IMG/VR virus record: IMGVR_UViG_3300021964_000180
Span: 1 to 39,010 of that record
Strand: one strand, 5' to 3'
DNA from: a virus
DNA length: 39,010 bases
Position 1 is the stretch's first letter, and each line of letters starts with the position of its first letter. Positions 2,002 to 36,826 of the stretch are shown here, in pieces. A model generated the notes under the pieces. The model saw only the letters and a program-made list of their open reading frames with translations. It did no database searches and was not told the origin of the DNA. A program made the translations under genes and the position numbers.

Positions 2002-2211
2002 TTAGGGTTGCGTTCTTCCTGTGAGCGTTGTTACTAGACAACTAGCACAGAGTATATCATCTGCATCATCTGACCAGAGTAAGTAGTCTGTACTATTATC
2101 TCCCCAAAGCAACTCAGATGTTTCTCTAGTTGTGTCTAAAGTTGTGCTAGGTTGTGTCCTACCACCCAATGTTGTACTAGGCTGCGTTCTCCCTGTTAGT
2201 GTTGTTGGCAT
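2002..2211 (-). CDS. Small repeat-containing virion-region protein, 69 aa
   Basis: Starts at ATG 2211, overlapping the stop of the upstream internal virion gene (TAATG coupling), and ends in TAA. The octapeptide TLTGRTQP occurs near the N-terminus, as TLGGRTQP in the middle and again as the last eight residues. The centre is acidic (SDDADDILC). It has no TGA codon. It lies between the internal virion protein and the tail fibre, so it is probably a small virion or tail-assembly protein. I do not recognise a family. Confidence 0.7.
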   Translation of the reverse strand: MPTTLTGRTQPSTTLGGRTQPSTTLDTTRETSELLWGDNSTDYLLWSDDADDILCASCLVTTLTGRTQP

Positions 2212-4115
2212 TATTCATTATCTTGTACTAAAGGTTCTATCTCTCATACTGTTGCTGCTATAGCCTTAGATGGCACTCAACTAGAATGTAGTAACTCAGA
2301 TATTTTTAGCATACCCTTAGGTGAACTAGCTTTACTAAGTACCAAACCAAACATTCCTCATAAGGCTAGGTCTCGTGCTGCTCATCTAAAGTCTAAATCA
2401 TTAGATATTTCAGAGTAAGCAGAGAATAATCATATACCTCCTCCTAATCCTGTAGCCAACATTCCCTGTAAGAATAATGATTTAAGTCTAACATCTTCTG
2501 CTATTTCTTTAATGAGGGCGTCTTTACTATATCCTTTATATAAATCTTTCACTCCCATATCTTTTGCAGAGTCCACAGCGTCATCCAGATAGGATTGTAG
2601 GAAATTCTTAAATTCTCTATTTATACTAGAAACAGATTTAGCTGGTAACTTAGTTTTGCTTAATGCAGCGATACTTTGGTCTCAATTTATTCTAGTTATA
2701 GTGTCTAATATTTCTTTACCATTTTGTGGTCAATCACCTATATACCAGTCAATAATGGTGTCAATTTTCTTGGTTATTTTCTTGTGTCATGCACTTCATT
2801 TCTGGAAGTTCATTAGCACTCAACCTCACAAATCACTAGTATCCTTGAATTTAACATCATCAATCATACCAATAATCTTTTCTTTGAGCATACTTTCATT
2901 AAACACACCACCCTCTAATGATTCCTTAACTAGCTTGTCTACATCATCTATATTTGTGTATTTTTTGAGGTTGGTTATAATACTCTTCTCATCAACCCCT
3001 CAAGCGAATGTTCACATTATTTTTTTATCTCCTATGAGGTCTTTTACAGCTAGATTAGGAGCTTTAGTAGATTTTCTACTCACATCAAAGATATAGTCCA
3101 CCATATTGGTTGGAGAGTCTACTCCATGTTTAACTGCGTTTTTGACCAACTTCTTAAATTCTGTTCAATCCACATAGTCAACATTCTTGACTATATCCTC
3201 CAACTGTTGTCGTGTAACATTCTTTCCAGCGTCTGCTGATTTTACTATATCGTCTAATTTACTATATTGGTATCAAGACTCTCTAATAAACTCTCAAGCA
3301 TCTTTTCCGAACAACCTATATGCCTTCTCTCTTAGACTCTTTTTTGTCATACCTATCGCTCCATCAAAAACCTTATCAGACACCTTACTCAATACTCATC
3401 ATACTCACGCAAATCAACCAGTGATTGCTCAATCAACAAGCATTTCTTTTACATCTATTTCTCATTCAGACGCAGAAGAATAGATTGCTCACTCATATAG
3501 TCCTGTCGATAATCATTGAATAATTCTAGCAGGGATTCAAGATGCTATTGTCTTCCCACCTAACTTAACAAGGGCTTTTCATTTAGTAGCTGCTGAAGCA
3601 GATGGTGCTAAAAAAGTTAATCCTATATCAGTAGCTATACCACCCAACTGAGTTCATAGCGCTTCGGGGTCTGCTCAGGTAGCTTCAAACACATCTCATT
3701 TGAGCTTGGTTCAGAATCAAGAAATTTTCTCATCTATTTGTGATAGGCTTTCTGGTGTTGACGATTCAAGACCAAACATTTTTCTATCAAGATAGTTGAA
3801 TATATTTCCTATTTTCTCTCCTCAGTTGACAACAGCCGCTGGTATATTAGCTATAGCTTGTGGAGCTTCAGCTATTACTCATTTAGCGAAATCAGATGTG
3901 AAGTCTCAAACTGACTGGAATATCCTCTGGAAATTCGATTCCTCTCTCTGTCTAGCAGCCATTTCATTTTTTTGATGATATTTCTTTTGAGAGATTTCGT
4001 ATCACTCCAATTGATTTCACCTAGATAATAGTGACTGGAAAACAGCACTAGGGTCTTGTCAATCCTCAAGGGCTTGTGCCTTAATTTTTGATTGTTCTTG
4101 CAATGAGATAAACAT
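2211..4115 (-). CDS. Large internal virion (ejection-type) protein, 634 aa
   Basis: Continuous only with TGA as glycine; I count about 37 in-frame TGA codons, more than half of its glycines. It has glycine- and alanine-rich hydrophobic stretches (residues about 180-260 and 560-600) separated by charged helical segments. That pattern fits proteins carried inside the capsid and ejected into the cell in podoviruses. It directly follows the M23-bearing virion protein and precedes the fibre. There is no recognisable enzyme motif. Assignment rests on size, composition and position and is an inference. Confidence 0.75.
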
Positions 4116-4136
4116 TAATTTATGTTATATGTAAAA

Positions 4137-6764
4137 TTATATTTTTCAAAATATATTTCTTTGATATGGGTCTTTTGTATAAGGATCGTTACTTGACATG
4201 GATGGCTGGTTAGCTGGTGTTTGATTCTGAGACTCTTCTTTTATTCTCTGTTCAATTGCTTCTATATATAAGGTAGGAGAGACTATGTCTGGTAGATTGT
4301 TCACATGAAAATCTATATCTGTGGTTGTATCAACTGGTCTTATACTAAATTCTCAATTTTGATAATCAAGGTTTCTGAGCGTGGTAGATATATCCTTATC
4401 CAATGCTCAAAAGTAGGTCTTATATCAATCAATTCCTATACCTTGTGATACAGATTCTGCAAATTTTGTATTAAGGAACTCATATGTGCTTGCATCGATA
4501 TTATCTATCATAGCAGTTATGTCCCCTTGTGATACACTAGCATCTTTTCATACTGTTGGTAGGGTTCTACTAAATGCAGCCCACTCTTCTTTACTTACTA
4601 CAGCCCCAGTTCTTGACCTCGCAAACTTATCTAAGAAATCATCAAGTCTACCGTCAAGGATATTTAATGCTTCGTCTGTTGTTTTCCCTGCATACTCATA
4701 TACTCATTCAGAGATTTTTACTATTTTCCCAACATCTCCTCAAGCTTGTGTGAAATCATCTAAAGCAAAGGCGAAGTCTATTAATTGGGATTTTAATTGT
4801 TCTCAAGTATCTACTTCTTTTATTATAGCAGGTGGTAGATTGTTTTTTCGTATTTCTTTTGTATGTCTAGCTGCTAAATCAGTTTTTCATTGGTCTATCA
4901 TACTTTGCACAAAAGCCATATTATCTCATTTTTGTGTTGTAGATGATGATAATATAACAGACTGAGCTATATCCATTAAGGAATCCTTTTGATTTTGAGG
5001 AGATACAGATCACCCACTATTTAAATATTGTTCTACCTTCTGTGGTGATATTCTTTGTCAATTAGTATCTCGTACTGTGATATCCGCATGGCTTCAATCT
5101 CAATTCTCTCATGGAATAACGAATCATGTATTACCTATTGTAGCAAACATTTGTCATTTAGTTATAGTGTCTCATGTTGTTACTCCAACATCATTAAGAT
5201 GAGCATATCTTGTTCTATTTCAACTAGTGTCTTCTACTGTAACCCAATTACCATATCAGGAAGGGTCGCTTCAATAATCTACTACTGTCCCATTAAATGA
5301 TGCCAATATAGGGTCTCATATTTTCCCATCAACATCTAATCAGTATGGGTTTGCATCTGTTCAATAGGCTGTAACCCTGCCTGTTCCGACATCACTAACA
5401 TTTCATGTTATGAAGGCACTACCAGCTCAGGCAAATATCTCTGTTCAATCTACATCAGTTATACCATAAGTTCAATCTCCATAGTCAACTAGAGAGCTTC
5501 ATGGATTTGCTTGTAATTTTGATACTATATCTAGTGCATTTCATGGGTCTGACTCCATCAATATCTTTGAATATAAGTCTAGGTTTGCATAATGCTGTGC
5601 CAATTCTGTATTACGTTGTGCTATTCAAGCCTGTGTTGTTTTAAATCATCTTTCCCATTCAGCTTGTGATTTAGTAAAATCAAACTGTTCTGCTTGAAAA
5701 TCAAACGCTCTATCTGCTTGTTTCTTAGAAAAATCAAATTGTTCCTGTTGAAGAGCAAAAGACTTTTGTTGTTGCATGAAGTTTATCATCTGAGTATCCA
5801 TACCTAGTTGTGTCTGTATCATTTGTTGCTCAAATGCTCTTTCTTCTCTTCCATCCTCTAATGCGAATTGGAATCTTCTCTCAGCGTGGCTCAACGCTGT
5901 ATTATAGTCTGTCTGAGCAAAGAATAAATCATCCTCTAGCATATCTATCTGCCTCTGTATATCCTTGTTTCTATTAGAGGTTAATGCTCTAATATATGAT
6001 TCGCTTGCTTGACCACCCTTCTCTTCTCTAATATCATCCTCAGTTTGTTTCATAATGTTTCTCAACTCTATTATCTCCTTCTGAAGAACATTATATTTAT
6101 CTAACTTATCTGTGAGTTCTGGAGTATCAAGATACTTATTATATATCTCCTCAGAGCTAATTTTATTATCTGCAATAGTCTGCATTCTTTTAATAGCGTC
6201 TTCATTATTCTTTTTCATCTGAGCGAGTAAGTCTCCAGACTCATCATAGGTACCCCTAGGGTCTCAATTAATACTAGCTAATGCCGCAGCATCATTCTGT
6301 GCATCCAACATATCTTGGAAAAGTTCAGGGTTATCTCTCTGTATAAGGTCTATTTCATCCTGACCTATATAACCTGAGTATACCCCCTTAATAACCTCCG
6401 CACCTGTTGTTGCCCCCTTAAGTCTATTTCTTGTGAAAATCTCATTCCTTATATCTCTATCTCACTCTAGGTTAGAATCCCTCACAGTGTTTTGACTTGG
6501 CTGAGTGGATGTTTGTACCACTGGGGGTGTCTCACGAGGCTCTGGTGTTTTTTTAGGTTCTGAAGTAGCGGGTTCTGCTGCGTTCCTTTCAGTTATCTCT
6601 TGCCTCACTGACGGTCTAGTGGTTGGAGTTGGCTCAGGTTGAGTTATAGACTCATTCTGTGCTCTTATTTTATCCTTGATTGTAGGATTAGCAGTACTTG
6701 TCTGCTGCGTATCTCAGATGATATCAGCGTTCTGTGCTCTAATCTTATCTTTTATGCTTGCCAT
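4137..6764 (-). CDS. Internal virion or tape-measure-like protein with M23 (LytM)-like domain, 875 aa
   Basis: Residues about 1-100 are proline- and charge-rich and carry a repeated KDKIRAQN motif at residues about 5 and 30. A long helical, probably coiled-coil region (about 180-390) contains QFDF repeats. A Peptidase M23-like beta domain lies at about 465-575 (YGLDVDGKIGDPI, YGNWVTVED, RYAHLNDVG, KGQMFATIGNTG, GSHADITV). The C-terminal 300 residues are helical. M23 domains in virion proteins typically cut peptidoglycan during DNA entry. Here the first metal histidine (HxGxD) is missing and the final HxH is HAD, so activity may be altered or lost. The M23 region is rich in TGA glycine codons. 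Confidence 0.85.
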
Positions 6765-9994: not shown

Positions 9995-10957
9995 TTATGC
10001 TGCGTTTGATCCGATAGAACTAGAACTTTCGATTCTGTAGAGTCCCTCTTGTCTTACGATAGAGAAACCAACTCTTGTTTTAACAGAAACGTTTGCTCTT
10101 TGTCTCAAGAAGTCGTCTCCTTTTCCTAATGGATCATAGAAAGATTGCATTCCTCCTGCTACTGCGTGGTGGAAAGCACTCTTACCGAAGACATATGTAG
10201 GATATACGTCTACAGTACCTGTGCTTCCTGCACCATCAGATGCGTTAGCGTAGAACTGTACGTTGCTAGATTCAACGAATCTACAACCGAACATAGCTCC
10301 TAGTTCTCCTTTGAATACTTTTTCTACATTGCTTGTGTAAGCATTAACTGGCAACCAGTCATTTGCTCCTACTGCTGCTTTCAAATCGTATGCTACATGA
10401 GGATGGATAACACAAACGTAGTATCCGTCAAATGTAGGTGCATCATTAGCTTTAAGGTTAGCAACTGCCTGTGCAATGTATTCGATTGTGATGATATCTC
10501 CATCGTCTACGTTTGTTCTTCCAGCTGATGCGTCTTCTGCAGATGAGTAGATTACGTTAGTACCAGCATCAATTGTATCCTGGTAAGCGATATCTACCTG
10601 TCTTGCTAGGTCGTTACCTAGTTCAACAGCTGCTTCTCTGATAGGTTCAATTGGGCTGTCGCTCAATACTAGGTCTGAAAGTTCAACTCTAGCTCCGTAT
10701 TGTGTAAGTGTGATTACTACAGGAGTAAGGGTGAATGCTGTTTCAGCAGGTGTAACACCTTCTGAAAGAGCAGCTACAGTTCAACTCATATCTTTTGGTT
10801 GGTAAACAGTTACAGATGTAACGCCTACGGGTTTCATGTGTTCTTTACCGAACTGCATGAAGAATCTTTTATCTTGGTAGTTTCTGTCTGCTACTTTCTG
10901 GATATATGAATCCAAATCACCAGTAGTCAACAGATTACCTTTTGTTGTTAAAGCCAT
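9995..10957 (-). CDS. Major capsid protein (N4-gp56-like, HK97-fold family), 320 aa
   Basis: Key pattern: the strand AFTLTPVVITLTQYGARVEL followed by SDLVLSDSPIEPIREAAVELG, then YVCVIHPHVAYDLK, VFGKSAFHHAVAGG and the C-terminal VKTRVGFSIVRQEGLYRIES. These are characteristic of N4 gp56-type major capsid proteins. Only one TGA glycine codon is present; the roughly two dozen other glycines use GGN. This contrasts with the neighbouring virion genes and fits selection on a highly expressed gene. It lies between the scaffold and connector genes. Confidence 0.92.
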
Positions 10958-16035: not shown

Positions 16036-16180
16036 ACTAAAAATAAATCGGTTTTTCCCCTTAAATCATGTAGATGTCTTAACATATCATTGTCCTCTAC
16101 CCAATCATCTATTGTCCCGTCACATCAGATCCATGTTAATCTCATAATTATTGGGTGGTGCTTTACCAAACTAAGCTACA

Positions 16181-16254
16181 TGCCCCCCTTCGGATTCGAA
16201 CCGAAACTGTACGCGTTCTAAGCGCGCTATCTCTGCCAATTGGATTACGGGGGC
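16181..16254 (-). tRNA. Atypical class I tRNA, anticodon UAG (reads CUA, Leu?)
   Basis: The acceptor stem pairs GCCCCC with GGGGGC, discriminator A73, and a G-G mismatch at the last pair. The T arm is canonical (TTCGG, loop TTCGAAT, CCGAA). The anticodon stem GCGCG/CGCGT closes loop CTTAGAA, giving anticodon UAG. The D arm has G18G19 and A14 but a weak stem of about 3 bp. The variable loop is only about 5 nt, unlike bacterial leucine tRNAs, which have a long arm. CTA codons are common in this genome, so it may supplement host decoding. Charging identity is uncertain. No 3' CCA is encoded. Confidence 0.8.
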
Positions 16255-16406
16255 ATGATATAAGTCCTTTTTATTTTGTAGAAAATTTTTGAGACCCTTT
16301 CTAACGCTAACAATTATTTTTCAACTCGGTACACCCCACCCCCTATCACGTTTCCAGCTTTTGTCAAGCCAATTATCACAAGCCAACAAATTGTCAACAA
16401 ACATTA

Positions 16407-32997: not shown

Positions 32998-33117
32998 ATG
33001 CCAAAAATAATAAAGAGAGGGAAACCATTTGGATTGAAAATATACCGACCACCTAAATACAAAAATAAACTAATCACAATCAAAATATTCTATTTAGTTT
33101 TCTATATAAAATGCTAA
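32998..33117 (+). CDS. Possible small basic peptide, 39 aa
   Basis: MPKIIKRGKPFGLKIYRPPK and a hydrophobic end; overlaps the GlyRS-like start by 7 bases (ATG inside its last codons), a coupling style common in this genome. Short, so uncertain. Confidence 0.35.
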   Translation: MPKIIKRGKPFGLKIYRPPKYKNKLITIKIFYLVFYIKC

Positions 33118-33797
33118 AAATTTACGAAAACAACTGACTACTCTTCCGAACACAAAAAGACATAGAGCTTAGAGAGTTTTTTGTAAAGAATATCAGCGAA
33201 CAGCTAAAACATTTCCTAAAAACAATAAATCACTCTTTTGATTTTCAGAGAGTGGAAGCTAGTCAGTTGACCCCAATTGATCTTTTGAATGAAAACTATA
33301 CAGAAGATGATTACTACAAAGTAGATGACTTAGCTCTTAGACCAGAGACTACAATGGGGAGTTTTGCCTATGCAGACCACATACTAAACCCACACAACAA
33401 ACCAAAAACAAGATTGCCTATTGTAGTACGACAAGCAGGTAAGTCTTTCAGGAGAGAACAAGATAAGGTTTTGAAGCACATGAGATTAAAAGAGTTCTAT
33501 CAGCTAGAGTTCCAAGTAATATACTCCAATACAACAGCAGATGATTATTATGGTAGAATAGTAGAATATATAGACCTACTTCTTAGCTCCCTTGTGTGAG
33601 ATACTAGATTAGAACCAAGTGATAGATTGCCCAGCTACTCAGAAATAACTACAGATGTAATAATGGAATGGAATGACATGGAGATATGTAGCATCTCCAA
33701 AAGAAAAGACTACCACGATGATATAGTGACAGAGGTTGCTATAGGTCTCGATAGACTTGTATACAATTATAATTGCATTCTTTGAGAAACGCTTTAA
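33111..33797 (+). CDS. Glycyl-tRNA synthetase-like class II catalytic core, 228 aa
   Basis: ALRPETTMGSF (residues 75-85) matches the GlyRS-specific LRPETAQG element. RLPIVVRQAGKSFRRE (101-116) plus MRLKEFYQLEFQ (124-135) is class II motif 2. CSISKRKDY (193-201) matches the GlyRS ARGDYDL-like strand and VAIGLDRL (209-216) is motif 3. The protein stops there: there is no C-terminal anticodon-binding domain, and the usual insertions are gone (known GlyRS subunits exceed 400 aa). Three of its glycines are TGA. It could charge tRNA-Gly, including one reading UGA, or a tRNA-like RNA, or be a repurposed core. Confidence 0.82.
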
Positions 33798-35771: not shown

Positions 35772-35954
35772 TTACAATTCCTTATATCTTTGTAAAATAT
35801 CTATTAAGTCATCCAATACTTCTTGGATAGGTTCATACTCTCTCCAGCCACCTCATAGTCTATCTAGGAGATCAGATTGAATAATGTGCATCTTTTGGTT
35901 GTACTTCATTAAGTCTTGCGTAGTAGGTTTTTCTCTTTCAAAGAGTTCAGGCAT
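35772..35954 (-). CDS. Small helical protein after the endolysin, 60 aa
   Basis: Starts at ATG 35954 in the TAATG of the endolysin stop. MPELFEREKPTTQDLMKYNQ and two further helices; one TGA glycine (RLGGW). May be a lysis accessory by position. Unknown. Confidence 0.6.
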
Positions 35955-36826
35955 TACATATACTTAGTAGATAAAAATTCCTTATGCTCATCACATAGTT
36001 TCATATTCTCATGTAGGTCTCTATACATAGGATTCATTACACAACCATCATTCTCACAATGCCCACATCCTATAGCGTGTCCTACCTCATGGGTGACACC
36101 ATACAGGAACTTATAGTCATTCTTCCAATCGAACTCATCATTAAAAAATACTCTACCGAATCAACCTTTAGCTAGTCAGTTCTCTGGGAACTTCACAGGC
36201 AGGTCATCATTCGTTCAGGTGAATATCTGTAGGTGTGCAGCAGAGATATATTTAGTAGATTGGAATCACTTACCAATATAGGGAGACCAGAAGTTGATAC
36301 CATTACTTACCATAATAATAGCCCTGTATTTATCTAACTCCTCTGGTCGAGAATCTAAATGCCAGAATACTTTACCATCTCTATAGGGTATTACATAATC
36401 CTTAGTTTCCATAGTGTCTTTAGAGGATAAACGTGGTGCATTGTACCAACCTAGTACTGTATCATATGTGTATGTATTTAAGCGTATAGCATCATTTCCT
36501 AGACCATTTCAAGCCCCTTCTCATCCGTTTTGTTCTATTACTTCTATTCACCAATCAAATGCTTGGGTAACTATAGCAACATGACCATAAGGAGGGTAGG
36601 TGTCAAAGAATATCATATCTCAAGGTATTGGTCTACCTGTTCATCTATCGTATCAATTGAATGTACCATTGACGTTCTGCCAACCAAGTTTAGCACTTCA
36701 TCAGAAGCTACCTAGCTGAATACCATAGAGTTCTTTCCATGCAACCTTACACCAACCTACACACTGGTATCAATATCAGGGTTCTCATACTCTACTACCT
36801 ACATACTTATCAATAAGCTGTTGCAT
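35954..36826 (-). CDS. Endolysin: CHAP domain fused to archaemetzincin-like (M54) metalloprotease, 290 aa
   Basis: The N-terminal CHAP/NlpC-like domain has active Cys in YGYQCVGWCK (C22) and His in PPYGHVAIVTQ (H82), with later polar residue EQN. The C-terminal domain carries HEVGHAIGCGHCENDGCVM (246-264), an exact fit to the archaemetzincin signature HExxHxxGx3Cx4CxM, then Met-turn-like NPMY and a distal C278xxH281 in place of CxxC. It lies directly downstream of the holin with a TAATG overlap. About fifteen TGA glycines. It would cut wall peptide bonds, and the second domain perhaps a protein target. Confidence 0.88.

Follow-up and report, generated by a model that had tools for sequence, protein, structure and literature searches.

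Dimeric (α2) glycyl-tRNA synthetases (GlyRS) of class IIa, exemplified by the enzymes of Thermus (1ati) and Mycobacterium (8t5n), are the best profile and structural match to a small protein encoded on the 39,010-base virus contig analyzed here (hereafter the window, meaning that whole stretch of DNA). The two share motifs 1 to 3, the positions equivalent to E188, R311 and E359, and the ATP-site positions. However, dimeric GlyRS enzymes are roughly 440–690 aa long whereas the window protein has 228 aa, and its family lacks both the anticodon-binding domain and the large GlyRS insertions. In addition, Ser361 is replaced by Ala in the family, and the window protein scores far under the GlyRS family cut-offs.

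By analogy, pyrrolysyl-tRNA synthetase (PylRS) of the Methanomethylophilus alvus type is a likewise compact class II core of ~275 aa, and tRNA recognition by PylRS does not involve the anticodon (PMC6222415). It differs in having another amino acid pocket and a weaker match to the family profile (1.4e-5 versus 6e-17 for GlyRS), and no pyrrolysine genes were seen. Some enzymes built on a class II core do not charge tRNA at all. The glycine:[carrier protein] ligase of Bradyrhizobium (Bll0957; 4h2s, 3mf1) is a small class II core too, and activates glycine without charging tRNA; stand-alone cores loading carrier protein are already known (PMC9437257). This ligase is absent from the sequence-profile matches of our family, and no carrier-protein gene adjoins family members.

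Among phages, the Brevundimonas phage Bambus “aminoacyl-tRNA synthetase”, the XbC2 “RNA synthetase class II” and the Phosso “serine-tRNA synthetase” belong to the same family and are 34–46% identical to the window protein over >94% of its length. Unlike the window phage, these three phages use the standard code and have genomes of 348–470 kb. Another phage-encoded synthetase in recoded phages is the tryptophanyl enzyme (TrpRS) of code-4 phages, which, as described in PMC10746230, comes with a suppressor tRNA and a release factor, whereas the window record encodes no cognate tRNA.

A GlyRS-type class II core read in code 25

The gene occupies positions 33111..33797 (+ strand) and is open only when TGA is read through. 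It contains three in-frame TGA codons and, in code 25 (TGA = Gly), encodes 228 aa followed by a TAA stop. The TGA codons for G9 (33135..33137, +) and G163 (33597..33599, +) fall on columns that are Gly in 40 and 26 of 55 relatives, respectively, while that for G225 (33783..33785, +) lies in the unconserved C-terminal tail. Since two of the three occupy Gly-favouring columns, translation of this gene in code 25 is supported. Across the called genes of the window, TGA is the commonest Gly codon (305 of 782), and the window as a whole behaves like a code-25 phage genome; both the reading of TGA as glycine and the reality of the open reading frame (ORF), as proposed in the initial annotation, were thus confirmed. 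The share of TGA among Gly codons differs sharply by gene: the two largest genes (2211–6764) use TGA for about half of their glycines, the capsid-like gene (9995–10957) for 1 of 27. No end repeat was found in the window record, which may therefore be a fragment.

The class II signatures could be placed along the whole protein. The motif 1 region (residues 44–55; 33240..33275, +) was located from alignments, has a nearly invariant P55 and forms strands at residues 44–47 and 53–55 in the AlphaFold2 model; motif 1 is the dimer-interface motif of class II enzymes. LRPET (residues 76–80; 33336..33350, +) begins an LRPETTMG stretch at residues 76–83. It is followed by motif 2 (SFRRE...MRLKEFYQLEFQ, residues 112–135; 33444..33515, +), by the strand MEICSISKRKDY (residues 190–201; 33678..33713, +) and by motif 3 (EVAIGLDR, residues 208–215; 33732..33755, +). 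Residues 76–202 align to residues 185–315 of Thermus GlyRS (1ati), and E79 therefore corresponds to E188 and, in the same register, R198 to R311. The spacing of motif 3 places E208 at Thermus E359, R215 at R366 and A210 at S361. The family thus carries the GlyRS-type signatures LRPET and S.RTDF in addition to motifs 1–3.

Eleven residues (E79, R114, E116, R125, F129, E133, E191, R198, D200, E208 and R215) are invariant in all 56 aligned members. We take Thermus E188, R311, E359 and S361 to be glycine-pocket residues, and the ATP-site roles are likewise presumed. The equivalents of the first three are conserved in 56/56 members, but 55/56 have Ala in place of Ser361, and in this respect the pocket departs from that of GlyRS. 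With that exception, the residues predicted from the alignment to line the ATP and glycine pockets are kept, and the pocket is apparently intact.

Profile searches point to the same assignment, with matches that put the motifs well outside what chance would give. The window protein matches the class II core family PF00587 in Pfam (E = 1.2e-7), and its best NCBIfam match is GlyRS (5.5e-11), with HisRS (2.4e-5) and HisZ (0.005) far behind. Its GlyRS score of 42 bits is below the 312-bit equivalog cut-off, which is expected for a bare core yet leaves specificity open. When the family profile was compared with solved structures, GlyRS chains ranked first among 34 profile matches (6e-17), ahead of SerRS (6e-6), PylRS (1.4e-5) and HisRS (8e-4); at the level of sequence profiles, GlyRS is clearly favoured, and the “serine” label of the Phosso member is not supported. 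The GlyRS model matches all 56 aligned members and is the only model common to every one of them, and no named PHROG was matched when the aligned members were searched against PHROGs.

The AlphaFold2 model of the window protein (pLDDT 95.1, pTM 0.91) gave the same result. The 11 best VIA-align matches are all GlyRS (Z 20.9–22.6 over 212–218 residues, rmsd 2.2–2.7), followed by HisRS (Z 20.9), the Bradyrhizobium ligase 4h2s (20.5) and ProRS (20.4), and, lower down, by the mouse POLG complex (9g74_C, Z 19.9) and HisZ (1z7m, Z 19.8). Because other class II enzymes come within ~2 Z units of GlyRS, structure alone does not fix specificity. The ORF stops 13 residues past motif 3, and the core takes up the whole protein with no anticodon-binding domain. 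The protein is a class II synthetase core nearest to dimeric GlyRS by both profile and structure. Here the initial annotation of a minimal GlyRS-type core held in size, architecture and motifs, with no other class II paralogue giving a better match and with the pocket residues retained.

The gene lies 3′ of a cytosine-5 DNA methylase gene and a small ORF, and 5′ of several small unknown ORFs. Many + strand genes between 17878 and 34446 have no visible Shine-Dalgarno sequence and carry an A/T-rich TTTATT..TATA leader directly before the ATG; one and the same leader-plus-start sequence, ttttaccccctaaccaATGAGAGTAATG, stands before 31760 and again before 32693. Further downstream, a gene at 35954–36826 (−) encodes a probable lysin in which a CHAP domain is combined with a matrixin-like metalloprotease domain.

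The family and its link to phage tRNA genes

Family members are 220–250 aa long, widespread and well conserved. The nearest relative of the window protein is a copy in an uncultured 636-kb phage (60% identity, E = 1e-80, tblastn), and the two pair in the family tree with support of 98/94 on a long branch. Among annotated phages, tblastn returned 19 long matches, every one in jumbo phages, including Sinorhizobium phage Phosso, Xanthomonas phage XbC2, and Caulobacter and Brevundimonas phages. Scanning IMG/VR using the window protein alone found nothing; a family alignment of eight sequences was needed and recovered 85 encoded relatives, of which 80 were kept. Bacterial genome contigs contributed 57 members, mostly from Rhizobium but also from Phenylobacterium, Shinella and others, and a Devosia plasmid encodes one as well. 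Around 50 Rhizobium and other Rhizobiales genomes have a member on bacterial contigs (loci L089–L145; for example L094, 6001–6750). One member (L034, 8001–8888) has a ~70-aa insertion between motif 1 and LRPET, and the fetched stretch of that record holds two tRNA-CUA genes.

In databases these proteins are labelled “hypothetical”, “serine-tRNA synthetase”, “aminoacyl-tRNA synthetase” or “RNA synthetase class II”. A literature search, covering mostly open-access papers, found no study of the family, which is little described, its members sitting in databases under vague or doubtful names. The initial claim that no phage system of this kind had been described therefore stands only in part: some members were already annotated as synthetases, and for Trp there are known cases of a phage synthetase that serves recoding (PMC10746230).

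In the phage relatives, the family gene lies close to tRNA genes. Of 66 distinct loci of >8 kb, 35 include at least one tRNA gene within the stretch retrieved. Among these 35, a tRNA gene is found within 1 kb of the family gene in 80% (30% for the other ORFs of the same loci) and within 500 bp in 57% (22% for other ORFs), a proximity equalled in none of 2000 random draws. When averaged over 19 clades, the values are 57.5% versus 25% (≤500 bp) and 83% versus 34% (≤1 kb), equalled in 0 of 3000 draws. Many kinds of tRNA occur near the gene, and tRNA-Gly is not enriched among them: it makes up 11 of the 77 tRNAs lying within 1 kb, compared with 21 of ~170 at greater distances.

Other neighbours include translation and RNA-repair genes. 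CysRS, a T4-type RNA ligase and PTH2 are neighbours at locus L003; an RNA ligase, an R2K ATP-grasp protein, CysRS and PTH2 are so in Phosso and its clade; at L022, CysRS overlaps the family gene by 4 bp; and a distant member (L062) is accompanied by PheRS, CysRS, YqeY, PTH2, RtcB and Thg1. At L094, on a Rhizobium chromosome, the family gene has a lipase-like gene (SGNH, judged by eye) on one side and gltD/gltB on the other, with no tRNA gene beside it.

In one jumbo-phage clade, the tRNA closest to the family gene is a solitary tRNA-CUA that has G73 and is located 53–1875 bp upstream at nine loci (L003, L028, L029, L031, L033, L037, L038, L039 and L040). The acceptor stems of these tRNAs are very varied, and the larger records of the clade have dozens of tRNA genes elsewhere. 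As these nine related loci keep the lone tRNA-CUA, we compared in-frame TAG in two phages of the clade over ~38,000 conserved codons. No convincing in-frame TAG remained after antisense frames were removed, and whole-genome TAG reassignment was rejected for these phages.

The window itself has a single tRNA gene, a tRNA(UAG) at 16180–16255 (−), 17 kb from the mini-GlyRS gene. The tRNA-like RNAs that had been suggested as substrates in this window thus come down to this one distant gene, and no tRNA-Gly(UCA) gene was found across the window. A reading of tRNA(UAG) as a glycine tRNA was rejected, the CTA codons of the mini-GlyRS gene falling on conserved Leu columns. The window shares Leu-anticodon tRNAs with a short variable arm (75–77 nt) with several jumbo phages from the clade of its mini-GlyRS (L012, 15130–15206; L014, 10797–11329; L019, 16345–16421; L027, 13443–13864; L057, 12145–12219), where they sometimes adjoin a normal long-arm tRNA-Leu.

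Proposed function and its alternatives

The distribution of the family, chiefly in giant phages next to tRNA genes but also in Rhizobium chromosomes, makes it probable that its members help to charge tRNA and did not arise for the unusual code of the window phage. The reading that we favour, and consider reasonably probable, is that of a GlyRS-derived, anticodon-blind mini-synthetase that most likely activates glycine and charges tRNA for phage translation. Such a class II core of GlyRS descent, lacking an anticodon-binding domain and probably dimeric, would use ATP to activate a small amino acid, for which glycine is the likeliest candidate, and would move it to the 3′ end of phage and/or host tRNA, which it would recognize by the acceptor end without reading the anticodon. 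It may form part of a translation-support kit together with phage tRNAs, other synthetases, RNA ligases and peptidyl-tRNA hydrolase. The window phage uses TGA more often than any other Gly codon, and there such a protein could enlarge the supply of Gly-tRNA, host tRNA-Gly(UCA) among it. Set against this reading are the low GlyRS score, the Ala at the Ser361 position, the existence of class II cores that do not act on tRNA, the 17-kb distance to the nearest tRNA in the window, the L094 copy beside gltBD without a tRNA gene, and the lack of tRNA-Gly excess near phage copies.

The most serious competitor, to which we give perhaps a fifth of our belief, is a GlyRS-like ligase that loads glycine onto a non-tRNA acceptor such as a carrier protein, another protein or a small molecule. 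The carrier-protein-loading cores introduced above (PMC9437257) offer a precedent, 4h2s is among the best structural matches, and the Rhizobium chromosomal members are mostly without nearby tRNA genes. Furthermore, the R2K ATP-grasp ligase that is a conserved neighbour in the Sinorhizobium-phage clade belongs to a class for which the attachment of amino acids to proteins has been predicted (PMC7824862). However, the family is GlyRS-like by sequence, with carrier-protein ligase chains making up 0 of 34 profile matches, and a simple motif search of 2619 neighbouring ORFs found no recurrent carrier-like ORF (six regex matches, none convincing). The tRNA linkage over 19 clades also argues against a non-tRNA acceptor.

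An extension of the tRNA-charging reading, with a parallel in the pair of PylRS and tRNA-Pyl, is rather speculative: the family could be a natural anticodon-blind glycine-type synthetase serving phage tRNAs of any anticodon, including the lone tRNA-CUA as a partner, and in the window phage it would charge a UGA-reading tRNA.

It is improbable that the protein is a device for the host’s code, specifically raising the charging of tRNA-Gly(UCA) to allow the translation of phage genes rich in TGA. The high TGA usage of the window, reaching about half of the glycines in its two largest genes, would fit such a role, and phages with UGA reassigned to Trp are reported to be able to encode TrpRS together with RF1 and a suppressor tRNA (PMC10746230). 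Against this, only the window copy has in-frame TGA; many family genes end in TGA, which is the normal stop in most phage carriers, and other members are found on Rhizobium chromosomes. Even the nearest relative, in the 636-kb phage, is open in the standard code. None of 20 records with related terminases has the gene, although many of these are fragments. The window has no tRNA-Gly(UCA) gene, and window phage and host presumably share code 25, so that the host would already decode UGA as Gly. As relatives use TGA as a stop, UGA = Gly is not the family’s purpose; the link to this code that the initial annotation drew for its phage GlyRS was not upheld, although raised charging of tRNA-Gly(UCA) by the window protein is possible.

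Similarly improbable is an inactive or regulatory paralogue resembling HisZ or POLG2 and acting as a protein- or nucleic-acid-binding scaffold: the fold is common to HisZ and the POLG accessory subunit, but both rank lower structurally, the HisZ profile is much weaker than that of GlyRS, and ATP-site and motif residues are all invariant across very diverse members, unlike in a family with lost catalysis.

If the proposed mini-synthetase does charge tRNA, it would be among the smallest natural enzymes to do so, and would put to a natural test the question of whether a class II core can achieve specificity on its own. Work on the genetic code would then gain a candidate tool as well. This function would explain a gene of jumbo phages and Rhizobium that now goes under the names “hypothetical”, “serine-tRNA synthetase” or just “aminoacyl-tRNA synthetase”.
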